From Microbacterium oleivorans (GTDB lineage: Bacteria; Actinomycetota; Actinomycetes; Actinomycetales; Microbacteriaceae), in the NCBI RefSeq assembly GCF_013389665.1, contig NZ_CP058316.1, positions 1,674,001 through 1,738,000 of the forward strand: a DNA stretch of 64,000 nt, written 5' to 3'. The first letter of the stretch is position 1. Each line of letters begins with the position of its first letter. Position numbers and translations under genes: made by a program. Below are positions 3,369-39,508 of this stretch, one piece after another. Below the pieces are notes generated by a model, which was not told the DNA's origin, made no database searches, and was given only the letters and a program-made list of their open reading frames with translations.

Positions 3369-3380
3369 TAGGCTGGACGG
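3369..3380 (+). promoter_or_regulatory. Extended -10 and leaderless start of the first ECF S-component gene
   Basis: TAGGCT at 3369-3374 is followed by six bases and then the GTG at 3381. This TANNNT-6-start spacing is the usual layout of leaderless actinobacterial genes, and there is no Shine-Dalgarno sequence here. It supports the chosen start. The rest of 3176-3380 shows no recognisable site, and in particular no CTGAGA thiamine-riboswitch core. Confidence 0.5.
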
Positions 3381-3923
3381 GTGGCCCCGGCATCCCGCCT
3401 CTCGACGCGCGTCCTGCTCGTATGCGCGGCCATCGGAGTCGCCACCGGGCTGCTCGGCGGCGTCGAGGGGTGGCTCGCGGCCCCGGTGATCGCCGGGGCG
3501 CCGATCCTCTACGGCTTCGTGTTGGGCGTGCACGTCCTGCCCGGGATCATCGCGCAGGAGGCCCTGCGTCTGCCTTGGGTCGCTCTGGTCACGCACCTCG
3601 TCGCGGCGCTCGCCTCATCGGCGATCGCGCCGCCCTACACGTTCCGCTTCCTCGGCACCGCGCTGCTGTTCGGCGCGCTCCAGGAGGGCGTGGCCGCGCT
3701 GGTGCGCTACCGGTCGTGGGCCCCGTGGCGCTTCTTCGTCTCGGGCGTGGTGATCGGCATCGTCGTCGCGCTGGCCGTCTTCTTCATCGCCGATCTCGGC
3801 GCACTCGCGCTCTGGGCCCAGATCACCTACCTCGTGCTGGCCGTTCTCGGCCCCGTCGCCTGGACGGCCGTGGGCCTCGCCATCGGCGTGGGATTGCGGC
3901 GCGCGGGCGTGGCTCGGCGCTGA
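3381..3923 (+). CDS. ECF transporter S component, YkoE-like (first copy)
   Basis: Substrate-binding membrane subunit of an energy-coupling-factor importer. The 180 residues form about five to six hydrophobic helices with short loops and a basic C-terminus (RRAGVARR), as in YkoE-type S components. It resembles the second S component at 7554-8123 along its length (shared CAAIGVA near the N-terminus and RAAGVA/RRAGVA near the C-terminus). The gene lies 77 bp before the fused ECF ATPase, but the iron box sits between them, so it probably has its own leaderless promoter with read-through into the operon. YkoE relatives are usually annotated for hydroxymethylpyrimidine or thiamine; the siderophore reductase in this locus argues for another ligand. 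GTG start. Confidence 0.75.
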   Translation: MAPASRLSTRVLLVCAAIGVATGLLGGVEGWLAAPVIAGAPILYGFVLGVHVLPGIIAQEALRLPWVALVTHLVAALASSAIAPPYTFRFLGTALLFGALQEGVAALVRYRSWAPWRFFVSGVVIGIVVALAVFFIADLGALALWAQITYLVLAVLGPVAWTAVGLAIGVGLRRAGVARR

Positions 3924-3953
3924 CCTCGCGTTCGACGCACTTCCGGCGGGAAG

Positions 3954-3972
3954 TTAGGGTCGGCTAAGCTAA
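3954..3972 (+). promoter_or_regulatory. Iron box (DtxR/IdeR-type operator) of the ECF-SIP operon
   Basis: TTAGGGTCGGCTAAGCTAA matches the 19-bp DtxR/IdeR consensus TTAGGTTAGGCTAACCTAA at 16 positions. It overlaps a plausible -10 (TAAGCT) and lies 28 bp before the GTG of the fused ATPase, the position expected for Fe-dependent repression. The match is visible in the sequence; the regulator is inferred. Confidence 0.72.
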
Positions 3973-4000
3973 ACGGACCCGATCCGATCCGAGGACGCCC

Positions 4001-5809
4001 GTGACTTCCGCCGCCTCCGGCTCCGCCACGGCGGGGCCACCCGTCGCGAACGCCGCGACCGCGCCGCTGCTGGTAGTGCGTGACCTCGCGGTGACATACG
4101 AGGGGTCGGATGCCGCCGCCACCCGCGGCGCGTCGTTCGAGATCCGTCCCGGCGAGGTCGTGCTGCTCCTCGGCCCCAGCGGGTCGGGCAAGTCGACGGT
4201 CGCGCTGACGTTGAACGGGCTCATCCCCCAATCGATCCCGGCCACGGTCGAGGGGTCCGTGCTGGTGGGCGGCGAGGACGCCGCGACGACGCCCATCCCA
4301 CGGCTGAGCACGCGTGTGGGCATGGTGTTCCAGGACCCCGACGCCCAGCTCGTGACCGGGACCCTGCTCGACGAGGTCGCATTCGGCCCCGAGAATCTGC
4401 GGTTGCCGGTCGAGGTGGTGCTCACCCGCGCCGAGGCGGCGCTGCGGCGCATGGGCCTGTGGGATCGGCGCCACGAGAATCCCGACCGACTCTCGGGTGG
4501 CGGGCGCCAGCGCCTGGCGATCGCCTGCGCGCTCGCCATGGACTCGCCGCTCCTCGTACTCGACGAGCCCACCGCCAACCTCGACCCGGCGGGCATCGAG
4601 GACGTCTACGCGGCGCTGGGCGAGATCGCCGCCGCCGGAGACCGTGCGATCCTCCTCGTCGAGCACAACCTCGACGCCGCCATCCGCTTCACCGACCGCG
4701 TGGTGGCCCTCGACCACGACGGCCGAACGATCGCCGACGGGCCGGTCGATGCCGTGCTGCGCGAACGGGCCGCCGAGCTGCACGAGGTCGGGGTGTGGCT
4801 GCCGGTCTCGACCCTCGCGGCCCTGCGCCTGCGCGAGGCGGGCTACCCGCTCGAGCCTCTCCCGCTGACGCCGGAGGAACTGCGCGCGGGGCTCGAGGCA
4901 GCGGCATCCGGTGACGAGAATCGGACGATCGCGTCACCGTCGGAGGCGACCTCCGATTCGGTCCGAGTTTCGCGCGATTCTCCGACGCTCGCACCGAGAC
5001 CGGTCGTCTCGGTGCGCGATCTGACGCTGCGCCGCGGCCGGACGACCGTGCTCCACGACGTCGATCTCGAGGTCGCAGCCGGCGAGTTCGTCGCGATCGT
5101 CGGTGCCAACGGGGCCGGCAAGACGAGCCTCATCCAGGCGATCGCGGGAGTCGTCCGCGGCCCGCGCGGGCGCATCGACGTGGGCGGACTCGATCCGAAC
5201 CGGGCCGACCCCCGGTCGGTCGCCGGGCGCGTCGGTTTCGTCTTCCAGAACCCCGAGCATCAGTTCGTCGCGCATACGGTCTTCGACGAGCTCGCCCATG
5301 GTCTGCGCCGCCAGCGGATCGCCGACGACGAGGTGCGCGAGCGCGTCGACGGGATGCTGCGCCGCTTCGGCCTGGAAGCGCACGCCGGCCGGCATCCGTT
5401 CCTGCTGTCCGGCGGTCAGAAGCGCCGCCTCTCGGTCGGCACGGCCCTGATCGCCGGCGCCCCGGTGCTCGCTCTCGACGAGCCCACGTTCGGCCAGGAC
5501 CGCGCTCGCGCCGACGAGCTGCTGCACGTGCTGCGCGACCTCAACCGCGACGGCACGACCATCCTCGTCGTCACCCACGACATGCAGCTGGTGAGCGAGT
5601 ACGCCGAGCGCTGCGTCGTCGTCGGCGACGGCCGCATCGTCGCCGACGGCGCAGCCGCCGACATCCTCGGCGACGACGACCTGCTGCGCTCGGCTGCACT
5701 GCGGATGCCGCCGCTTCGCCGCGCCCTGCACGGGCTCGATGCGTTCCCCGAGCTCTCGGGCATCGCACGCCTCGCGGACCTCCCGCGGGCAGCAGGATCG
5801 TCGCGATGA
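4001..5809 (+). CDS. ECF transporter energizing ATPase, two fused ABC domains (YkoD-like)
   Basis: Cytoplasmic ATPase that drives the ECF importer; 602 residues carrying both nucleotide-binding domains in one chain. Domain 1 (about 25-265): Walker A GPSGSGKST, signature LSGGGRQR, Walker B LLVLDEP, switch His in LLVEHN. Domain 2 (about 335-560): Walker A GANGAGKT, Q-loop FVFQNPEHQF, signature LSGGQKRR, Walker B LALDEP, VTHDM. The first signature has GGG where the canonical motif has GGQ. GTG start preceded by GAGGA at good spacing. First gene after the iron box; its TGA overlaps the ATG of the T component. The fusion of two ATPases is typical of YkoD and many actinobacterial ECF systems. Confidence 0.92.
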   Translation: MTSAASGSATAGPPVANAATAPLLVVRDLAVTYEGSDAAATRGASFEIRPGEVVLLLGPSGSGKSTVALTLNGLIPQSIPATVEGSVLVGGEDAATTPIPRLSTRVGMVFQDPDAQLVTGTLLDEVAFGPENLRLPVEVVLTRAEAALRRMGLWDRRHENPDRLSGGGRQRLAIACALAMDSPLLVLDEPTANLDPAGIEDVYAALGEIAAAGDRAILLVEHNLDAAIRFTDRVVALDHDGRTIADGPVDAVLRERAAELHEVGVWLPVSTLAALRLREAGYPLEPLPLTPEELRAGLEAAASGDENRTIASPSEATSDSVRVSRDSPTLAPRPVVSVRDLTLRRGRTTVLHDVDLEVAAGEFVAIVGANGAGKTSLIQAIAGVVRGPRGRIDVGGLDPNRADPRSVAGRVGFVFQNPEHQFVAHTVFDELAHGLRRQRIADDEVRERVDGMLRRFGLEAHAGRHPFLLSGGQKRRLSVGTALIAGAPVLALDEPTFGQDRARADELLHVLRDLNRDGTTILVVTHDMQLVSEYAERCVVVGDGRIVADGAAADILGDDDLLRSAALRMPPLRRALHGLDAFPELSGIARLADLPRAAGSSR

Positions 5810-6615
5810 CCGCCGCCGCGATCGATCCCTACGCGCCCGCAGCACCCTCGCGCCGGCTCCTGTTCCAGCTGAACCCGCTCGCCAAGCTGGCCGCGCCGGT
5901 ACCCGCCATGATCGCGCTGATCTTCGTCCGCGACCTCGCCACCCCCCTCGCCCTCCTCGCCCTGGCATACGCCGTGCTTCTGGTCGGCGCTCGCTGGACG
6001 TGGCGGTCTGCCGCGCTCCTGCTGCTCGGCCTGCCCGCGGGCATGGGGCTCATCGGCGTCGGGATGTCGCTGTGGGTCGACGCCTCCCGTGTGTCGGACA
6101 CACCGGCTCTCTTCCGGATAGGGGTGTGGACCCTGCACGCCGGCGCGCTGCAGATCGGCATGGCCACGGGACTGCGATTGGGCGCCATCGCGGCGCTGGC
6201 CTTCATCGCGGGGCTCACCACGACCGGCCCCGATCTGGTGCGCGCGACCGTGCAGCAGCTGCGGGTGCCCTACCGGGTGGGTTACACCGCGCTGGCGGCC
6301 TTCCGGTTCGTGCCGCGGTTCGGCTACGAGCTCGAGCTCATCCGGCAGGCGCACCGAGTCCGAGGCGCCCACGGCGGCCGCGGCCCCGTGGCAGCGGTCG
6401 CCCGCTGGAGCGGGTATGTCGTGCCGTTGCTGGCCGGCGCGATCCGCCACGCCGAACGCGTCGCTCTGGCGATGGACTCGCGCGCGTTCGGCGCACACCC
6501 CGACCGCACCGAACGGCACCTCGTCCCCTTCCGTCGCCGCGACGTCGTCTTCGTCATCGGCTTCTGGCTCGCCTCAGCGGTCCTGCTCGCCCTCCTCTTC
6601 CCCTGGTCGCCGTGA
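5806..6615 (+). CDS. ECF transporter transmembrane T component (YkoC/CbiQ-like)
   Basis: Membrane scaffold that couples the ATPase to the S component. The 269-residue protein has an N-terminal helical bundle (about 25-125) and a cytoplasmic coupling region with the two conserved Ala-Arg-Gly-type helices, seen here as HRVRGAHGGRG and ALAMDSRAFGAHP. ATG overlaps the stop of the ATPase gene (ATGA), so the two should be translationally coupled. The gene is followed after 51 bp by the siderophore-interacting protein. The family is clear; substrate specificity comes from the S component and is not readable from this subunit. Confidence 0.9.
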   Translation: MTAAAIDPYAPAAPSRRLLFQLNPLAKLAAPVPAMIALIFVRDLATPLALLALAYAVLLVGARWTWRSAALLLLGLPAGMGLIGVGMSLWVDASRVSDTPALFRIGVWTLHAGALQIGMATGLRLGAIAALAFIAGLTTTGPDLVRATVQQLRVPYRVGYTALAAFRFVPRFGYELELIRQAHRVRGAHGGRGPVAAVARWSGYVVPLLAGAIRHAERVALAMDSRAFGAHPDRTERHLVPFRRRDVVFVIGFWLASAVLLALLFPWSP

Positions 6616-6666
6616 CGCACGAGTGACGTCGCCGGGCTCCGGCCCCGTCTTGAAAGGACAACCCGC

Positions 6667-7557
6667 ATGGCTCGCTACAGCAGCCTCGTCAAGCCCGCGA
6701 CCCCGGGCCTCCTGCACCTCACCGTCGTGCGCGCCGAGCAGATCGCGCCGCACTGGATGCGGGTCACGCTCGGCGGCGGCGACATCGGCCGGTTCCGGCC
6801 CCTGGGGTACGACCAGTGGTTCCGCCTCTTCCTGCCGCTCGGAGGCGACCAGGGCCTCGAGCGCGTGCCCGAGAAGGCCAACAAGCTCTTCGGCTACCTC
6901 AAGTACCTCCGCATCCCCGAGGGCGAGCGCCCCGTCATGCGCAATTACTCCGTGCGTGCCTATCGATCCGACGGCCCATCGGGTGGGCCGGAGATCGACG
7001 TCGACTTCGTTCTGCACGGCTCGGGACCCACGGCGGGCCCCGCGTCGCGATGGGCCGAGCAGGCGCGGGTCGGCGAGAGCGTCGTCATCATCGACGAGGG
7101 GCTCCGCTTCGACCCGGAACGCGGGGTCGACCGTGTCGTGCTGGTCGCCGACGAGACGGGCGCCCCGGCGGTGGCCTCCATCTGCGCGTCGCTGCCCGAC
7201 GCGGCATCCGGCGTCGCTCTGATCGAGGCTCCCTCGTCCGCCGACGTCGTGCCGTTCGATGCCCCGACCGGAGTGAGTGTGCGCTGGCTCGTTCGCGACG
7301 GCGACACGGCACCGGGCACGCTCGCGCTGGCGGCCCTGACCGACGAGGCGCTACCCGCCGAGCCGTTCCACGCCTTCATCGTGGGCGAGCAGTCGCTGCC
7401 GACGGCGGCGCGACGGATGCTGGTGAACGAGCGGGGCGTGCCCAAGGACCGGATCGACTTCGTCGGCTACTGGCGGGTCGCGGCGAGCTCGTCCGCACCG
7501 AAGGCGCGGGCCGCGGCCGAGCGGGGCTCCGACGCCGGCACCGAGGCTCGCGCATGA
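6667..7557 (+). CDS. Siderophore-interacting FAD/NAD(P)H reductase
   Basis: Cytoplasmic flavoprotein of the SIP (ViuB-like) family, which releases iron from imported ferric siderophores by reduction. In 296 residues an N-terminal FAD-binding barrel carries the diagnostic RNYSVRAYR motif at about 96-104, and a C-terminal NAD(P)H-binding domain starts near VVLVADETGAPA and ends in the family-typical FVGYWR. Start ATG preceded by AAAGGA. Placed between the T component and the second S component, downstream of an iron box, it ties this ECF transporter to iron rather than to vitamin uptake. The C-terminal tail is Ala/Arg-rich. Family assignment is strong; the siderophore is unknown. Confidence 0.9.
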   Translation: MARYSSLVKPATPGLLHLTVVRAEQIAPHWMRVTLGGGDIGRFRPLGYDQWFRLFLPLGGDQGLERVPEKANKLFGYLKYLRIPEGERPVMRNYSVRAYRSDGPSGGPEIDVDFVLHGSGPTAGPASRWAEQARVGESVVIIDEGLRFDPERGVDRVVLVADETGAPAVASICASLPDAASGVALIEAPSSADVVPFDAPTGVSVRWLVRDGDTAPGTLALAALTDEALPAEPFHAFIVGEQSLPTAARRMLVNERGVPKDRIDFVGYWRVAASSSAPKARAAAERGSDAGTEARA

Positions 7558-8123
7558 GCCGGCCGGTCCGCTCCCGCGCCGCCCGCGTGTCGACGGCCTA
7601 CCTGCTCACCTGTGCCGCGATCGGGGTGGCGGCGAGCGCGCTGATGGCTCCGGCCTGGGTCGCGTCCTCGACGCTGTTCCTCACCGTGCCCTTCGCGACG
7701 GTCGCCATCGCGGGGCTGTGGGTCCTGCCCGCCGTCATCGCTCTCCGGCTCCTTCAGCGCCCGGGAGCGGGGCTGCTGGTGGGACTGATCTCGGGGCTCG
7801 TCCTCGCACCGTTCTTCACGATCGGGTCGGTCGCGACCATGCTCTACTGGTCCTTCTTCCCCGAGCTGCCGTTCCTCGTCACGCTCTACCGACGCTGGAA
7901 CACCTGGCTGCACTATGCCGGCTCGGCACTCATCGGTGCGACCTATCCGATCCTCTCGGCGCAGTACTTCGACCTGTGGAGCATGACCCCGCCCGTGCTG
8001 GTCTCGTTCATCGCGCTGTGCGTCGCGAGCTGTGTCGTGGCCACGTGGCTCGGCATCCTCGTGGGCGACCGCCTGCGTGCCGCCGGCGTCGCGACCCTCG
8101 CCCGCCGCCGCACCCCCGCCTGA
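7554..8123 (+). CDS. ECF transporter S component, YkoE-like (second copy)
   Basis: Second substrate-binding membrane subunit, 189 residues with about six hydrophobic segments and a basic tail ending in RRRTPA. Its ATG overlaps the TGA of the siderophore-interacting protein gene (ATGA), so it is the last gene of the iron-box operon. It aligns with the first S component (3381) at both ends but diverges in the middle, where ligand-contact loops are expected (here a Tyr/Trp-rich stretch around FFTIGSVATMLYWSFFP). Two S components around one energizing module could give two ligands, or one could act as a modified partner. The family call is reasonably secure, the ligand is not. Confidence 0.75.
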   Translation: MSRPVRSRAARVSTAYLLTCAAIGVAASALMAPAWVASSTLFLTVPFATVAIAGLWVLPAVIALRLLQRPGAGLLVGLISGLVLAPFFTIGSVATMLYWSFFPELPFLVTLYRRWNTWLHYAGSALIGATYPILSAQYFDLWSMTPPVLVSFIALCVASCVVATWLGILVGDRLRAAGVATLARRRTPA

Positions 8124-33310: not shown

Positions 33311-34428
33311 CGTGCCCCCGCCGGCTGCGCGGAAGCCGTGCCCGGAGCAGGCGGGGCGCCCGGAGCGGGCGGGGCGGTCGACCGGCGGGCGCGCCGGCGG
33401 GCGCGGGCGCGCACGACGGCGGCGACGATGCTCGCCACGATGAGCAGCGCCGACACCAGCAGCGACACCAGCATGACCACGAGCGCCCACTGCGGCGGCT
33501 GCTCCGAGCCGCTCGCGGCGGCTTCCGTCACCGTGCCGCCCGAGACGGTCACCTCCGCCTCGGCGACCGCCCCCGAGGCGGCGCCGCTCAGCGTCACCAG
33601 ATGCGTGCCGTCGCGGATGTCGCGGGGCACCGGCAGTGCCGCCGCGACCTCGCCCTGCGCACCCGCGGTGAGCGGCCCGACCGCGGTCAGTCCGCCGTCG
33701 AGCGAGGCGACGACCTGCTCACCGGGCGCGAAGCCCTGACCGGTGAAGACGATCGAGGTTCCGGCCGCCACACCGGCCGACGCGACACCGACCCGCACCG
33801 CCCCGGCCGTGCCCGCGGCGGGAGCGGCGGCTGCGGGCTCCGCGTCCGCGGCCGCGGTGCGGAACGTGATCGGGGTGAAGGTCTCGTTGTTGGCGTTCTT
33901 CACCCCATGGGCACCGATGGTGATGATCCCGCACGTCACCTCGCGGCAGTCGACGGGCGCCACCTCACCCTCGCGATCCGTGCTCTCGAACGCAGCCCCG
34001 GGCACGACCATGTCGATCGACCAGGAGCCGTCGGCGGCGATGACGCCGTTGGCCGAGCTCTCGGTCTGGCTGCCCTCGAAGGCGATGAAGCGTTGGAAGC
34101 CGTTGTTGTCGGCAGCCTCGGCGTCGGGGACGTAGCGGTAGTCCGCTCCGACGGCGCCGCCGGCGCTGGGTTTCCACGACCCACCGGAGGGATCGTCCAC
34201 CCAGCCGAAGAGCACGTAGATCCCACCGAACCCGCCCCGGATCGCCTGGAATCCCGACCCCGATACGGTCACCTCGGTCGCACCGTCGGCCGCCACGACA
34301 CCGCTCCCGTCGGCCGTACCGATCGAGACGGATGCCGCGGCCCAGGCGGCGGGCGCCGCGATGAGTCCCGCGGCGCACGCGATGAAGGCGGCGGTGATCG
34401 CCGCGGCGATACGGTGCAGGGGTCTCAT
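33307..34428 (-). CDS. Exported Ig-like membrane protein of the heme operon
   Basis: 373 residues: signal peptide (1-31, ending AAPAAWAA), a beta-rich domain (about 32-195) with EVTVSGSGF, IYVLFGWVDD, WKPSAGG and a closing NETFTPITF, then a second Ig/IPT-like domain (about 208-298), a membrane helix (about 313-338) and a basic Arg-rich tail. The first domain has a single Cys pair (DCREVTCG). The same domain with the same signature words occurs in the middle of the HtaA protein at 37685. No HtaA domain here. Start and stop both overlap neighbours (ATGA), between hmuV and the HtaA gene. Probably a heme relay or scaffold; inferred only from context. Confidence 0.78.
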   Translation of the reverse strand: MRPLHRIAAAITAAFIACAAGLIAAPAAWAAASVSIGTADGSGVVAADGATEVTVSGSGFQAIRGGFGGIYVLFGWVDDPSGGSWKPSAGGAVGADYRYVPDAEAADNNGFQRFIAFEGSQTESSANGVIAADGSWSIDMVVPGAAFESTDREGEVAPVDCREVTCGIITIGAHGVKNANNETFTPITFRTAAADAEPAAAAPAAGTAGAVRVGVASAGVAAGTSIVFTGQGFAPGEQVVASLDGGLTAVGPLTAGAQGEVAAALPVPRDIRDGTHLVTLSGAASGAVAEAEVTVSGGTVTEAAASGSEQPPQWALVVMLVSLLVSALLIVASIVAAVVRARARRRARRSTAPPAPGAPPAPGTASAQPAGAR

Positions 34429-35264
34429 GGGGTGCGCTCCTCGGTCGATGTCTGCAGGGGGGCGGACGGCGGGCGATCGCCGGAACGGTCGGCCGCGCCG
34501 CTGTCGGCCAGGACGAGCAACGCGCCGCGCGGGCCCTCGACGACGTCGATCGGATGCCGGTAGACCCGCGTCAGGATCGCGGGTTCGAGCACCTCGCGCG
34601 GCGTTCCGTGGGCGGCGAGGCGACCGTCCTCGAGCAGGGCGATGCGGTCGCCGTAGGCGGCGGCGAGGCCGAGGTCGTGCAGGACGACGATCGCGGCGCC
34701 ACCGGCAGCGACCCGCCGACGCGTACGATCGAGCACCCGGTGCTGATGACGGATGTCGAGGCTCGCCGTCGGTTCGTCCAGCAGCGCGATCCGGCACTCC
34801 TGGGCGTACGAGCGCGCGAAGGCGACGCGTGCCCGTTCTCCGCCCGAGAGACCGGTCACCGGCCGATCCGCGAGATGCCCGACCTCTCCCGCGACGACGG
34901 CCTCCGCCACCGCGAGGTCGTCCCGCGCGGCCTCGGGGCGGCGACGCCAGGGCGCGCGTCCCATGCGGACGACGTCGTGCGCGATGAAGGGGAACGACAC
35001 GTCGTTGCTCTGGGTCAGCACCGATCGCCTGCGAGCACGCTCGGCGACCGGCCACGCGTCGAGGACCGCGCCGTCGAGCTCGACCGACCCCCCGTGCGGG
35101 GCGCGGTCCCCGGCGAGCACGGCGAGGAGGGTCGATTTTCCGGCACCGTTGGGCCCGACCAGGACGAGGACCTCCCCGGCCCGCAGTTCGAGATCGATGC
35201 CGTCGAGCACGCGCCGTCCACCGACCTCGGCCGACACGCCCCGGGCGCGCAGGACGACGCTCAT
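34425..35264 (-). CDS. hmuV: Heme ABC transporter ATP-binding protein
   Basis: 279-residue ATPase of the FecE/HmuV type. Visible motifs: Walker A GPNGAGKST, Q-loop LTQSNDVSFPF, signature GLSGGERARVA, Walker B IALLDEPTASLD and switch His in VVLHDLG. A 35-residue tail rich in Ser/Pro extends beyond the ABC fold. The ATG overlaps the permease stop (ATGA). Energises HmuU; assigned to heme rather than to siderophores because of the HtaA genes in the same operon. Confidence 0.93.
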   Translation of the reverse strand: MSVVLRARGVSAEVGGRRVLDGIDLELRAGEVLVLVGPNGAGKSTLLAVLAGDRAPHGGSVELDGAVLDAWPVAERARRRSVLTQSNDVSFPFIAHDVVRMGRAPWRRRPEAARDDLAVAEAVVAGEVGHLADRPVTGLSGGERARVAFARSYAQECRIALLDEPTASLDIRHQHRVLDRTRRRVAAGGAAIVVLHDLGLAAAYGDRIALLEDGRLAAHGTPREVLEPAILTRVYRHPIDVVEGPRGALLVLADSGAADRSGDRPPSAPLQTSTEERTP

Positions 35265-36430
35265 CCCCAGCCTCCCGATCGGCGGCGGGTACGGCGGAGC
35301 AGCCAGAAGAAGAAGGGTCCGCCGATCAGTGCGGTGAGCATGCCGATGGGCAGCTCCGAACCCGGAATCGCGGTACGCGCCACGAGGTCTGCCGCCAGCA
35401 GCAGCACCGCGCCGCCGAGGGCGCAGGCGGGCAGCAGCAGCCGGTGCGCCGGTCCGAGGATCATCCGCATGAGGTGCGGCACGACCAGCCCGACGAACCC
35501 GATGATGCCGACGAAGGCGACCGCGGCGCACGTGAGCAGCGCGATGACGACGATGGCCGCCACGCGGAGCCGTTCGACGCGCACACCGAGATGCTCGGCC
35601 TGCCGCTCGCCGAGGGCGAGCAGGTCGAGACTGCCGGCGAAGAAGAAGCAGGCGACGATGCCGACGATCGCCAGCGGCGCGACGATCGCGAGGTCCTGCC
35701 AGCGCGTGCCGTTGAGCGACCCGAGCTGCCAGAACACGATCTGCTCGCGCTCCTGCGTCGAGCCGAGGTAGGTGAACAGCGCGATGGCGGCCCCGCCGAC
35801 GGCGTTGACCGCGATGCCGGTGAGCACGAGGGTGACGACCTCGGTGCGCCCGTCGGCTCGCGCGGAGGAGTACACGATCACCGTGGCGGCGAGCCCGCCG
35901 GCGAAGGCCAGCAGCGGCAGCGTGAGGGGGCCCGCGAAGGTGAGCCCGAAGACGATCGCAGCGGACGCGCCGACCGCGGCACCCGAGGAGATGCCGATCA
36001 CGCCGGGCTCGGCGAGCGGGTTGCGGAAGACCCCCTGCATCACGACCCCGGCGGTGGCGAGGGTCGCGCCCACGAGCACGGCCATGATCAGCCGCGGCAT
36101 CCGGATGAGCCACAACGTCGCCTCGCCGTTGACATGCGTCATCGCCGCGCCGTCGGGCACCGACAGGGCGCCGAGCCCCGCCGCGCTCACCGCGTCGTTC
36201 CAGGCGCGCGCGAATGCCCCCACGACCTGGTCGGGAGGGATCACGAGCTGACCGCTGCCGGCCGACACCACCGCCAGCGCGACGAGGGCGAGCGACATCC
36301 CGCAGAAGACCCCGACGACAAGCACGGGGGTGCGGCGCCGCCGCGCCCCGGCCCGCCGCACGGCGCCCGTCCCGGAGCGCGTCACGCCGGTCGGGTCGGG
36401 CGCGATCGGTTCGGAGGCGACCACGCTCAC
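35261..36430 (-). CDS. hmuU: Heme ABC transporter permease
   Basis: 389-residue FecCD-family permease with about ten helices. Visible family motifs: LWLIRMPRLIMAVLVGATLA, GVVMQGVFRNPLAEPGVIGISSGAAVGA, and near the C-terminus FVGLVVPHLMR and ELPIGMLTALIGGPFFFWLL. GTG 36430 overlaps the hmuT stop (GTGA). A 60-residue charged N-terminal extension (SEPIAPDPTGVTRSGTGA) precedes TM1. Partner of HmuV and HmuT. Confidence 0.93.
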   Translation of the reverse strand: MSVVASEPIAPDPTGVTRSGTGAVRRAGARRRRTPVLVVGVFCGMSLALVALAVVSAGSGQLVIPPDQVVGAFARAWNDAVSAAGLGALSVPDGAAMTHVNGEATLWLIRMPRLIMAVLVGATLATAGVVMQGVFRNPLAEPGVIGISSGAAVGASAAIVFGLTFAGPLTLPLLAFAGGLAATVIVYSSARADGRTEVVTLVLTGIAVNAVGGAAIALFTYLGSTQEREQIVFWQLGSLNGTRWQDLAIVAPLAIVGIVACFFFAGSLDLLALGERQAEHLGVRVERLRVAAIVVIALLTCAAVAFVGIIGFVGLVVPHLMRMILGPAHRLLLPACALGGAVLLLAADLVARTAIPGSELPIGMLTALIGGPFFFWLLRRTRRRSGGWG

Positions 36431-37524
36431 CCGGCGGCCTCGGGCGCGTAGACGGCGACGGCGAGCGCGTCGAGCACGCCGGCGGCGGCGGGGCCGAAGC
36501 TCAGCACCGTCGTGTCGGACATGTCGACGATGCGACGGTGGCGTCCGGCGTCGGTCTGCGCGACCGCGGGCAGATGCTCCACCAGCCCGTCGACGCCGCC
36601 GACCGACTCGAGTCCCTTGGTCATCATGATGAGCAGGTCGGGATTCGCATCGACGAGCGCCTCGTCGGTGACCGGACGCATGCCCTGCCATCCGATCTCA
36701 CCGGCGACGTCGACGCCGCCGAGCGCCTCGATCAGGCTGTCGGCGCCGGACTCCTCGCCGAAGAGGTAGTACACGCCCGACTGGCCCCGCACGTACAGGA
36801 ACATCATCCGCAGCTTCTCCGCCGGATCCGCGGGAGCGATCGCCGCGATCTCGGCGATCTTCGCGTCGACCTCCGCCATCGTCCGTGCGGCCAGCGCCGT
36901 GCCGCGCTCCGCCACGCCGAGAGCGCCGGCGACCTGCTGCACGAGGTCGCCGATGTTCTCGAGCGAGCGATGGGAGTCGACCACGACGACCGGGATGCCC
37001 GCATCGCGCATCTGCAGGATGGTGTCCCACGGGCCGAGGCTCGTGTCGGTGAGGATGACCGTCGGTGCGGCATCCAGGATCGCCTCGGCGTTGAGGTCGT
37101 GGCCGTTCTCGGTGACGACGGGCAGCCCGGCGGCCTCAGCGAAGCCGCTGGAGGTGTCGCGCGCGACCACCGATTCGCCCAGTCCGAGCTCGAACACGAT
37201 CCGCGACAGCGATCCGTAGATGTCGAGCGTGAGGATGCGGGAGGTGTCGGTCACCGTCACCTCGGTGCCCTGCGCGTCGACCACGGTGGCCGGAAGAGCC
37301 TGCGGGCCGTCGGTGATCGGCTCGACCGCCGTGTGCGCGGCGACCGCGGTCGACGGCCCCTCCCACGCGGCCGGGTCGGACAGCGGGGTGACCTCCGACA
37401 GCGGGGGCGTCGCTGCCGCATCCGCTCCGCCGCCCGGCGCGGTGGCGTCGCACGACGACAGCATCAGCGCAGCGGCGAGCGCCACGGCGAGCGCGCCGAT
37501 CGCACGGGAACGTCTCGGCCTCAT
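36427..37524 (-). CDS. hmuT: Heme-binding lipoprotein of the ABC transporter
   Basis: 365-residue periplasmic-type binding protein of the FepB/HmuT clade. Signal peptide with lipobox LMLSSC, the lipidated Cys at 25. Two-lobe fold motifs include RILTLDIYGSLSRIVFELGLG and TVILTDTSLGP. The conserved heme-ligand His/Tyr are likely in the loops around VDSHRSLENI and MRPVTDEAL, but I cannot fix them by eye. ATG 37524 preceded by GAGGTGA. First gene of the operon behind the iron box at 37539. Confidence 0.92.
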   Translation of the reverse strand: MRPRRSRAIGALAVALAAALMLSSCDATAPGGGADAAATPPLSEVTPLSDPAAWEGPSTAVAAHTAVEPITDGPQALPATVVDAQGTEVTVTDTSRILTLDIYGSLSRIVFELGLGESVVARDTSSGFAEAAGLPVVTENGHDLNAEAILDAAPTVILTDTSLGPWDTILQMRDAGIPVVVVDSHRSLENIGDLVQQVAGALGVAERGTALAARTMAEVDAKIAEIAAIAPADPAEKLRMMFLYVRGQSGVYYLFGEESGADSLIEALGGVDVAGEIGWQGMRPVTDEALVDANPDLLIMMTKGLESVGGVDGLVEHLPAVAQTDAGRHRRIVDMSDTTVLSFGPAAAGVLDALAVAVYAPEAAG

Positions 37525-37538
37525 GAAATCACCTCGGG

Positions 37539-37557
37539 TTAGGTAAGCCTGACCTAC
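37539..37557 (-). promoter_or_regulatory. Iron box of the hmuTUV operon
   Basis: TTAGGTAAGCCTGACCTAC (read on the + strand) matches the DtxR/IdeR consensus at 15 of 19 positions and ends 14 bp before the hmuT start codon. Expected to repress the operon when iron is sufficient. Confidence 0.72.
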
Positions 37558-37584
37558 ATCTTGCACCATCTCGTCGCGGCATGG

Positions 37585-37603
37585 TTAGGTGAGCCTTGCC
37601 TAG
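37585..37603 (+). promoter_or_regulatory. Iron box of the HtaA-DUF916 gene pair
   Basis: TTAGGTGAGCCTTGCCTAG matches the consensus at 14 of 19 positions and lies 81 bp before the HtaA start. It gives the rightward genes their own iron control within the 160-bp divergent region. Confidence 0.68.
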
Positions 37604-37684: not shown

Positions 37685-39508
37685 ATGGAATCTCCGACCA
37701 CGCGCCGCGGTCGACGAGGACGGCCGATCGCGGCCCTCGTCACCGCGAGCGCGCTCGCTCTGGGCGGCGTCCTCGCCGCCTCGCCTGCCAGCGCCGCCGA
37801 GACGACCGTCTCGGACGCCGTCTTCCGCTGGGGCGTCAACGCCGAGTCGCACGCCGCCGCGTTCGCGCCGGGCACGTACAACCTCTTCAGCGCCGGCGTC
37901 GTCACCGCGACCTCGTCCGCCGACCGCGTGACGACCGCGAACTGGAAGCAGTCCGAGGGCAACGTCGACATCCTCAAGCGCCAGCCCGACGGCAGCTACG
38001 CGGATGCGACCTTCGCCGGACTGAGCACGGACGTCAACGGCACGCGCCTGACCACCGGCGCCGGCAACAACTCCGGACACGTCGTGGAGATCGCAGCCGG
38101 AACCGGGACGGTCGACCCCGCCGCCGGCACCGCCGAGATCCAGTGGACCGGGACGTTCACGTCCGCCTACTACTCGGGCATGACCCGCTCCTGGATCACC
38201 GACCCGCACCTGAGCGTCGCGGCCGACGGCACCGGCACCATCACCGCCACGCTCGGCGGCTACGGCACATCGATGGACGACCCCGATCTGTTCCAGCAGA
38301 TCACCCCCGTCGAGGACGTCGTCATCGCCACCCTCACCGGCGTGGAGGTCGACGCCGACGGATTCACCGTCACCCCCGACTACCTCGGCAAGACGGTGAA
38401 CACCGGCTCGGGCACGCCGCAGGTGACGACCGGGGCCTCGGCCGGTGCGTTCCCGCAGCCGTTCGTCGACTTCCAGACCCTGACCGGCCAGGGCAGCTAC
38501 TGGTACTCCTCGGGCGGCGCAGCGGACGCACGCAAGCCCACCACGCCGCTGTCGGTGTCGTACACCGCCGCGGCTCAGCCGGCCGCACCGACCGTCACCG
38601 TCTCGAAGACCTCCGGCATCGACCGTGCCGGCGAGACCATCACGGTGACCGGTTCGGGCTTCGTGCCCGCCGGCGCCGCGACGACGGGCAGCCGGCCGCC
38701 GCTGGCCGGCCAGTTCGTCGGCGCGTACGTCGCATTCGGCAAGTTCGCCGACGTGTGGAAGCCCTCCGCGGGCGCCCCGGCCTCGGCACGCGGCGAGCGC
38801 GTCGACACCAAGTGGGCGCTCCCGGCCGAGAGCCACGCCGCCGTCGGCGGCGCCGCGGCCGGTGCGATCGAGCTCGCGGCCGACGGGACCTTCACGGCCG
38901 AGCTCAACGTCTCGACCACCGAGGCCCGCGATCTGCTGGCGGGTAACTACGGCATCTACACCTACGCCGGCAGCGGCGCGACCTACGCGCCCTTCGAGAC
39001 GTTCACCCCGATCACCTTCGCCGGCGCGAGCGATGTCGTCGTCGAGGTGCCGGAGCAGGTCGAGGAGCCCACCGGTTCGTTCGGCTGGAGCTTCGAGGGA
39101 TCCTCGCCGGCCGACCTCGGCACGGCGACCGCACAGGGCGGCAACTTCGTCGCGACCGGCTCGCTCACCAACATCGTGGTGACCGACACCCGCGCCGGGG
39201 GCACCTCGCCCTACATCTGGAGCATCTCCGGACAGGCGAGCGACTTCGCCTCCCCGGGCGGCGGGTCGTTCTCGGCCGACCTGCTCGGCTGGACGCCGAA
39301 GGTCGTCGAGGGCGGCGCAGCGGTGACCAAGGGCGCCGACGTGCCGTCGTCCCGCCTGGGCGGCGCCGGTCTCGCGTCCTCGCGTGTGCTCGCCTCGTCG
39401 ACCACCGCCGCCAGCGCGACCGTGGGCGCCGACCTGTCACTGGTCATCCCCGGCGACACCCCGGCCGGTGCGTACACCAGCAAGCTCACCGTCACCGCCC
39501 TGCAGTGA
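37685..39508 (+). CDS. Secreted HtaA heme-binding protein with C-terminal WxL-like domain
   Basis: 607 residues. Signal peptide 1-38 (ending ASPASAA). HtaA domain about 42-295: FRWGVNAESHAAAFAPGTYN, YYSGMTRSWITDPHL, GYGTSMDDPDLF. Middle domain about 298-450 with ITVTGSGF, YVAFGKFADVWKPSAG and FETFTPITF, shared with the protein at 33307. C-terminal domain about 460-607 resembles WxL cell-wall-binding domains: FGWSFEG, YIWSISGQASDF, LLGWTPKV and a final GAYTSKLTVTAL, although the second canonical Trp is replaced. No LPXTG and no membrane anchor. ATG follows AAGGGA. The next gene is a DUF916 protein, the usual WxL partner. Surface heme capture is the likely role. Confidence 0.85.
   Translation: MESPTTRRGRRGRPIAALVTASALALGGVLAASPASAAETTVSDAVFRWGVNAESHAAAFAPGTYNLFSAGVVTATSSADRVTTANWKQSEGNVDILKRQPDGSYADATFAGLSTDVNGTRLTTGAGNNSGHVVEIAAGTGTVDPAAGTAEIQWTGTFTSAYYSGMTRSWITDPHLSVAADGTGTITATLGGYGTSMDDPDLFQQITPVEDVVIATLTGVEVDADGFTVTPDYLGKTVNTGSGTPQVTTGASAGAFPQPFVDFQTLTGQGSYWYSSGGAADARKPTTPLSVSYTAAAQPAAPTVTVSKTSGIDRAGETITVTGSGFVPAGAATTGSRPPLAGQFVGAYVAFGKFADVWKPSAGAPASARGERVDTKWALPAESHAAVGGAAAGAIELAADGTFTAELNVSTTEARDLLAGNYGIYTYAGSGATYAPFETFTPITFAGASDVVVEVPEQVEEPTGSFGWSFEGSSPADLGTATAQGGNFVATGSLTNIVVTDTRAGGTSPYIWSISGQASDFASPGGGSFSADLLGWTPKVVEGGAAVTKGADVPSSRLGGAGLASSRVLASSTTAASATVGADLSLVIPGDTPAGAYTSKLTVTALQ

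Follow-up and report, generated by a model that had tools for sequence, protein, structure and literature searches.

A Microbacterium operon joining an ECF transporter, a siderophore-interacting reductase and two YkoE-lineage S components under an iron box: a probable ferric siderophore importer

What does an energy-coupling factor (ECF) transporter carry when its genes stand behind an iron box and share an operon with a siderophore reductase? Such a locus lies at positions 3381–8123 of a 64,000-nt stretch (hereafter the window) of a Microbacterium genome of 3.35 Mb. ECF transporters are known for the uptake of vitamins and metals, to which heme has lately been added. We consider it probable, from the sequence features described below, that this operon encodes an ECF importer that is repressed by iron, has its own reductase and takes up ferric siderophores, most likely of foreign origin.

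The locus comprises five genes, all on the plus strand. The first encodes S1, an ECF S component of the YkoE lineage (3381–3923; PF09819 with 37.2 bits, cut-off 25.2). A DtxR/IdeR-like iron box follows at 3954–3972, its end 28 bp before the start of a fused double ECF ATPase, A1A2 (4001–5809; TIGR04520 with 370.8 bits and TIGR04521 with 364 bits, both above cut-off). The remaining genes encode an ECF T component of the CbiQ family (5806–6615; PF02361, 88.3 bits), a siderophore-interacting FAD/NAD(P)H reductase (SIP, 6667–7557) and S2, a second YkoE-lineage S component (7554–8123; PF09819, 41.9 bits). The ATPase and T genes overlap by 4 bp, as do the SIP and S2 genes. Two ATPase domains, a T component of CbiQ type and an S component with six helices make up a group I ECF layout, and a complex of S and T components powered by the ATPases is predicted from this gene content. 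With the NCBIfam model for cobalt CbiQ (TIGR02454), the T component reached 47.5 bits, below the cut-off of 111.8; SIP and S2 had no match in the NCBIfam search. In Pfam, SIP carries FAD_binding_9 and SIP domains, both above cut-off (PF04954 with 105.6 and PF08021 with 94 bits), and it has eight PDB sequence matches (E 3.9e-28 to 1.4e-5), including SIPs and ViuB.

The box, TTAGGGTCGGCTAAGCTAA, agrees at 16 of 19 positions with TTAGGTTAGGCTAACCTAA, which we take to be the DtxR consensus and used for scoring. With up to three mismatches allowed, the window holds two matches, compared with a mean of 0.00 over 100 shuffles, and the whole genome four, compared with none for the reversed control pattern. 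All four adjoin iron-uptake-type genes: besides the box of the operon, one lies between a binding-protein gene (PF01497) and another SIP gene, one upstream of an operon for a substrate-binding protein (SBP) and a FecCD permease inside the window, and one before a gene that, in NCBIfam, best matches a ferric-enterobactin binding protein, at a score below the cut-off. The genome also encodes an actinobacterial iron-dependent DtxR (308.6 bits, equivalog cut-off 290).

Boxes of this kind are frequent in relatives. At 14/19 or better, a box was found in 45 of 79 related ECF operons and in none of 500 regions before other open reading frames of the same loci; at 13/19 or better, the counts were 62/79 and 3/500. 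Both comparisons take in the 330 bp before the ATPase or S gene, limits wide enough for all ATPase starts, so that an operon may offer two such regions and each control only one; the 79 loci are not 79 separate events, the species being related and at least one locus being counted twice (L061, L127). Under tighter upstream limits, 41 of 77 operons had a box of at least 14/19, versus 0 of 3080 random draws. Shuffles, reversed pattern, control regions and random draws together rule out a chance box. Predicted iron-box control is thus widespread, not universal, and its conservation over species makes the operon a putative member of the DtxR regulon for which iron-dependent repression is predicted. 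The box stands before the S gene in Agreia, and before the ATPase gene in genus g2 and in the Microbacterium loci with at least 14/19. Because it lies downstream of S1, it could directly control the ATPase, T, SIP and S2 genes, and not necessarily S1.

The initial annotation of this DNA had described a 16/19 box at the promoter of an ATPase–T–SIP–S2 unit with another S component upstream and had seen no thiamine riboswitch. All of these parts were found again by Pfam, NCBIfam and box scans, and Rfam scans of the window and of 11 related loci gave no match, so the window has no thiamine pyrophosphate (TPP) riboswitch. Two of its phrases have to be narrowed. The system was called fused to siderophore reduction; SIP is tied to the ECF genes by the operon, not as a fused protein. 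The promoter box, in turn, can be claimed for the four genes behind it and not for S1.

S1 and S2 are both predicted to have the YkoE fold. In a tree of 98 of the 146 alignment rows, in which long branches (including L149 with L182) were flagged, their lineage is split from YkoE by a branch with 100/100 support. Two residues of the YkoE thiamine pocket, Gln95 and Asp131 (numbering of PMC5037267), are each kept in 0 of 138 rows of the S1/S2 lineage. YkoE rows have Gln95 in 7/8 and Asp131 in 7/7 without a gap; seven of them come from the smaller comparison (of eight fetched YkoE loci, L119, L121 and L123 were left out) and the eighth, L143, was assigned by its tree position in the larger one. 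Glu77 of YkoE was dropped as a test residue, since 7 of 8 YkoE rows lack it too. The replacement Q95W has been reported to abolish thiamine binding by YkoE (PMC5037267), and a tryptophan is what S2 proteins have at this place in 40 of 44 rows. In the S2 of the window, Trp56 occupies the place of YkoE Trp49, Trp99 that of Gln95 and Ser135 that of Asp131.

S1 has a different pocket, with His51 at the Trp49 place, Phe97 at Gln95 and Val133 at Asp131. Both His51 and His72 are present in 47/47 Microbacterium S1 rows, which have Phe or Ile at the Gln95 place; this count leaves out L015, L017, L018 and L046, which were labelled S1 by rule and are S2 genes on short contigs. Outside Microbacterium, the S rows from upstream of the ATPase gene carry Tyr where S1 has His51 (21/21). 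The two histidines form a possible metal or heme ligand pair.

In helix 1, the segment CAAIGVA is nearly invariant (C20, A21, A22, I23, G24 and A26 in 25/25 rows of alignment A1) and coincides with the T-docking motif proposed for YkoE; the distant members L149 and L182 lack its cysteine. Given this conservation, several S components could use one energizer.

A pointer to the substrate comes from relatives in another taxonomic order. Of 297 genomes from the order to which Nonomuraea belongs, three have S components of the lineage, at 112 bits or more, and the others listed reach at most 79. All three loci are of S–ATPase–T type and lie in siderophore clusters of aryl type. In each, the distance is at most 8 kb to nonribosomal peptide synthetase (NRPS) genes, 19 kb to an aryl-AMP-ligase-like gene and 25 kb to a pair of ATP-binding cassette (ABC) genes resembling IrtAB. 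In Nonomuraea itself (G393; L058, L147, L148), S, ATPase and T are followed by the IrtAB-like pair, the AMP ligase gene and the NRPS genes. This ligase comes closest to DHB-AMP ligase (DHB, dihydroxybenzoate), whose cut-off of 723.55 it misses with 637.7 bits; about 20 kb away lies a thiazolinyl imide reductase above cut-off. In G527 (L182, L184), the ECF genes follow a thiazolinyl imide reductase (315.5 bits, cut-off 188.8) and an NRPS that includes an embedded methyltransferase and thioesterase; an IrtAB-like pair and an aryl-AMP-ligase-like gene are located 18–24 kb upstream. In G456 (L181, L186), they adjoin an IrtAB-like pair and an NRPS condensation–adenylation reading frame, and an aryl-AMP-ligase-like gene lies about 12 kb upstream. 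The S components of all three have Trp at both the Trp49 and the Gln95 place, which is the S2 signature. With YkoE as outgroup, they and L149 (Trp/Phe at these places) branch before the forms of Microbacteriaceae.

We also approached the question in reverse, with thiazolinyl imide reductases above cut-off as anchors (23 places, spread over 22 of 394 genomes), and covered about 20 kb to the left and right as far as the contig reached, with IrtAB-like halves called at 190 bits or more to the pair of locus L055. For that reference pair, the first half has IrtA as its best PDB match (471 bits, next family 359), and the second half matches human exporters (378 bits) about as well as IrtB (373), so that it is not diagnostic alone and pairs were called by both halves. 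Both IrtAB-like halves occurred in 13 of the 23 neighbourhoods and a detectable ECF system in only three: the Nonomuraea centre itself, G797 and G773. The S components of the latter two are of MptD type and unrelated to YkoE (PF09605; TIGR02185 with 131.7 and 99.6 bits, cut-off 76.45), which suggests that ECF systems were recruited to siderophore clusters from at least two S families. One scan yielded no more than a weak T match for G797 and did not pick up G773, and divergent ECF systems may therefore escape detection in such counts. Two actinobacterial thiazoline clusters contain an IrtAB-like pair together with an ECF system with an MptD/Trep_Strep S component at L260 4361–7189 and L261 11672–14990.

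How constant is the Microbacterium arrangement itself? In a sample of 393 genomes from the class, only four genera (g1, g2, g5 and g15) have S components with at least 130 bits to the S1/S2 profile, and the others stay at or below 85. The closest named operons are those of Microbacterium arborescens and relatives (L007–L010), with 84–86% identity for S1, 88–93% for the ATPase and 87–89% for S2. We then surveyed 75 named loci found with S2, writing A for the ATPase. The full S–A–T–SIP–S order is present in 39, and two more have the SIP match in two pieces. Smaller groups comprise S–A–T with one exporter-type ABC gene (5/75; single ABC genes follow S–A–T in Agreia), S–A–T–SIP (2/75), S–A–T–S–S–SIP (1/75), S–A (1/75), S–A–T with an IrtAB-like pair (1/75) and loci whose left part is missing, leaving T–SIP–S, A–T–SIP–S or SIP–S (6/75). 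Two loci have an IrtAB-like pair, SIP and S without ECF genes. The divided SIP genes (L050 7124–7968, L052 7124–7968) may reflect a frameshift. A search of plasmids with S2 gave no match, and the Nonomuraea T component gave three partial matches only.

Some loci bear on the sharing of energizers. In L055 (3510–8567) and L068 (3557–8561), an IrtAB-like pair, SIP and a YkoE-lineage S component stand together with no ECF ATPase or T gene nearby; in L068, a 14/19 box lies directly before the IrtAB-like pair. These S components may use an energizer encoded elsewhere. In genus g2, four of six genomes examined have a boxed A–T operon plus an S gene elsewhere. The unlinked S genes of this genus (L129, L131, L132, L133, L135, L138, L142) have the S1-type His in 6/7 and Trp in 1/7. 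Microbacterium marinilacus carries a second, divergent S–ATPase–T operon back to back with an IrtAB-like pair (L149 4727–11663). Two entries titled Stenotrophomonas maltophilia and Planococcus (L017, L020) contain Microbacterium-type operons, and contamination or mislabelling is likely; the L020 genome has three PF09819 genes with scores similar to those of the source genome.

Elsewhere in the window, the SBP–FecCD operon occupies 34425–37569 on the minus strand (SBP of PF01497, FecCD permease, ABC ATPase), with iron boxes at 37539–37557 and 37585–37603. For the divergent gene at 37685–39508, an HtaA-like heme protein was suspected by eye; it had no Pfam match at E 1e-5. The source genome contains no Condensation domains and no IucA/IucC domains, these being the synthesis routes searched for, so foreign siderophores are the likely substrate.

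From these elements we propose the following mechanism. At low iron, DtxR would leave the box and the ATPase, T, SIP and S2 genes would be transcribed. In the membrane pocket where thiamine sits in YkoE, S2 would capture a ferric siderophore of small size, most likely one that is aryl-capped (phenolate, catecholate or thiazoline), and S1 would probably capture a different ligand, either another siderophore or heme. With its conserved first helix, S2 would dock on the T component, which the S components would share, ATP hydrolysis would move the complex inside, and SIP would reduce Fe(III) in the cytosol, thereby releasing the iron.

Of the other substrates that could be considered, heme survives best. 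Here S1, S2 or both would bind heme as LhaS does, and SIP would give electrons for heme use or act on another substrate. His and Tyr can both ligate heme, and the invariant histidines of Microbacterium S1, with Tyr at the His51 place elsewhere, fit such a role. The heme ECF system Lha of Staphylococcus lugdunensis has been reported, and two other such systems are cited with it (PMC7299338). However, S2 has Trp at this place and shares its Trp/Trp pair with the S components of the siderophore clusters, the SIP family is named for ferric siderophores, and siderophore-type NRPS genes accompany the three relatives from the Nonomuraea order. We therefore regard heme as an unlikely substrate for the operon as a whole; the evidence favours a ferric siderophore over heme for S2, and S1 may bind either.

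Less probable still is that the operon imports a siderophore building block or an iron-free siderophore (salicylate, DHB or a recycled ligand) and not the ferric complex. The aryl-AMP-ligase-like genes in the clusters of the relatives would suit this idea, and Streptococcus equi has been described as requiring external salicylate for equibactin (PMC3672683). Yet neither a Condensation nor an IucA/IucC gene that could use such a supply is present in the Microbacterium genome, the presence of SIP among the operon genes suggests a ferric substrate, and deletion of eqbHIJ in S. equi was reported to cut 55Fe accumulation while the product was still exported (PMC3672683). We give a similarly low chance to a metal-ion importer (Fe2+, Co2+, Ni2+ or Mn2+) with SIP as a ferric reductase, an idea that draws on the word cobalt in the names of PF09819 and CbiQ and on the iron control. 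An importer of a vitamin or precursor (thiamine, hydroxymethylpyrimidine or another) under incidental iron control, with SIP as an unrelated passenger, would agree with the PF09819 membership and predicted fold of S1 and S2 but is very improbable, as both thiamine contacts are gone throughout the lineage and the genome has a separate YkoE (136–138 bits) that lies under a TPP riboswitch, an element found neither in the window nor in the 11 related loci. A thiamine transporter with a hidden riboswitch is ruled out by the same Rfam scans and pocket residues.

Several observations weigh against siderophore import by this operon. The genome has six SIP-family matches and the window an SBP–FecCD importer, so that neither the use of SIP nor siderophore import need depend on it. 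Within Microbacterium, S1 falls outside the boxed unit. S–A–T stands alone, with neither SIP nor a second S gene, in 16 of the 75 loci, and 17 of the 79 ECF loci have no box of at least 13/19, including all three in siderophore clusters. The idea that ECF systems are the standard importers of thiazoline clusters was not supported, because with 3 of 23 places against 13 of 23 for the IrtAB-like pair they are not the usual importer there. Heme ECF systems were also described as iron-regulated (PMC7299338). Finally, the comparison with the equibactin transporter EqbHIJ drawn below is by annotation, and EqbH may belong to the other, MptD-type S family.

Taken together, an ECF route for an iron compound is well supported, because the boxes are conserved, SIP is in the operon, the thiamine contacts are lost and relatives of the S components lie in siderophore clusters. 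The initial annotation had left open ferric siderophore or heme, and the choice now narrows towards a siderophore for S2. Its proposal of one energizer for two S components agrees with the conserved docking motif and with the unlinked S genes of the related genus, and the sharing itself is predicted from sequence. Opinion can be evenly divided on a broader view, namely that this YkoE-type branch consists of membrane receptors for ferric siderophores, that in Microbacterium two of them with different pockets (S2 with Trp/Trp, S1 with His/Phe or His/Ile) serve one energizer and one reductase and let a cell lacking the usual siderophore synthases admit several foreign siderophores, and that such systems form a third Gram-positive import class beside SBP–FecCD and IrtAB, with at least two S families recruited independently.

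If true, a rebuilt vitamin importer would be an under-recognised iron route for Gram-positive bacteria, ECF transporters would be a general class of siderophore uptake, and PF09819 membership could no longer be read as thiamine transport. The loss of Gln95 and Asp131 with the gain of Trp or His offers a residue signature for such receptors. The operon links ECF import to a dedicated reductase, and it makes the sharing of an energizer by several S components of group I type testable.

ECF import of siderophores has one genetic precedent, EqbHIJ of S. equi. The initial annotation knew of no description of such an operon. Our full-text literature search, which covered few subscription papers, likewise turned up no publication in which ECF, SIP and YkoE-like S genes form one operon, and the available text of PMC12971057 and PMC6311696 adds nothing on ECF siderophore import. 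EqbHIJ, and an ECF system noted beside an equibactin-like cluster in S. lugdunensis (PMC12709192), qualify the novelty. A C. difficile island was also described as carrying the kinds of genes found in the equibactin locus (PMC6814731).

EqbH, EqbI and EqbJ are annotated as the S component, T component and duplicated ATPase of a predicted ECF transporter (PMC8754150). Like the Microbacterium operon, they are associated with a DtxR-like repressor, which governs the equibactin locus, and have a link to an aryl/thiazoline siderophore. They were found to be needed for most of the siderophore-dependent 55Fe accumulation, with equibactin still secreted by the deletion strain; deletion of eqbKL, the YbtPQ/IrtAB-like genes, did not block the iron-overload phenotype (PMC3672683). 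Unlike the Microbacterium genes, eqbHIJ lie inside their own siderophore cluster with eqbKL, and no SIP is named among eqbA–N in the available text of that paper; the Microbacterium operon carries two S genes, and no synthesis genes adjoin it. It resembles importers of the EqbHIJ type in that it has SIP in the operon and relatives in siderophore clusters. Compared with the thiamine importer YkoEDC (YkoE structure 5edl, PMC5037267), an iron box replaces the THI box, Gln95 and Asp131 are lost, and a second S component and SIP are present. LhaSTA of S. lugdunensis, likened here by description, is also an iron-regulated ECF system for an iron compound; it differs in its heme substrate and its place in the isd locus, and the available text names no SIP with it (PMC7299338). 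IrtAB and YbtPQ share the ATP-driven import of ferric siderophores (cited in PMC3672683), and IrtAB-like pairs accompany some of the S relatives, but they are ABC heterodimers of exporter fold, not ECF systems, and none is found in the Microbacterium operon. The SBP–FecCD importers, one of which lies at about 34.4–37.6 kb of the window, have iron-box control in common with the operon. Their substrates belong to the class proposed for the operon, and they differ in capturing them with an extracellular lipoprotein receptor, where the ECF system would use a membrane S component.

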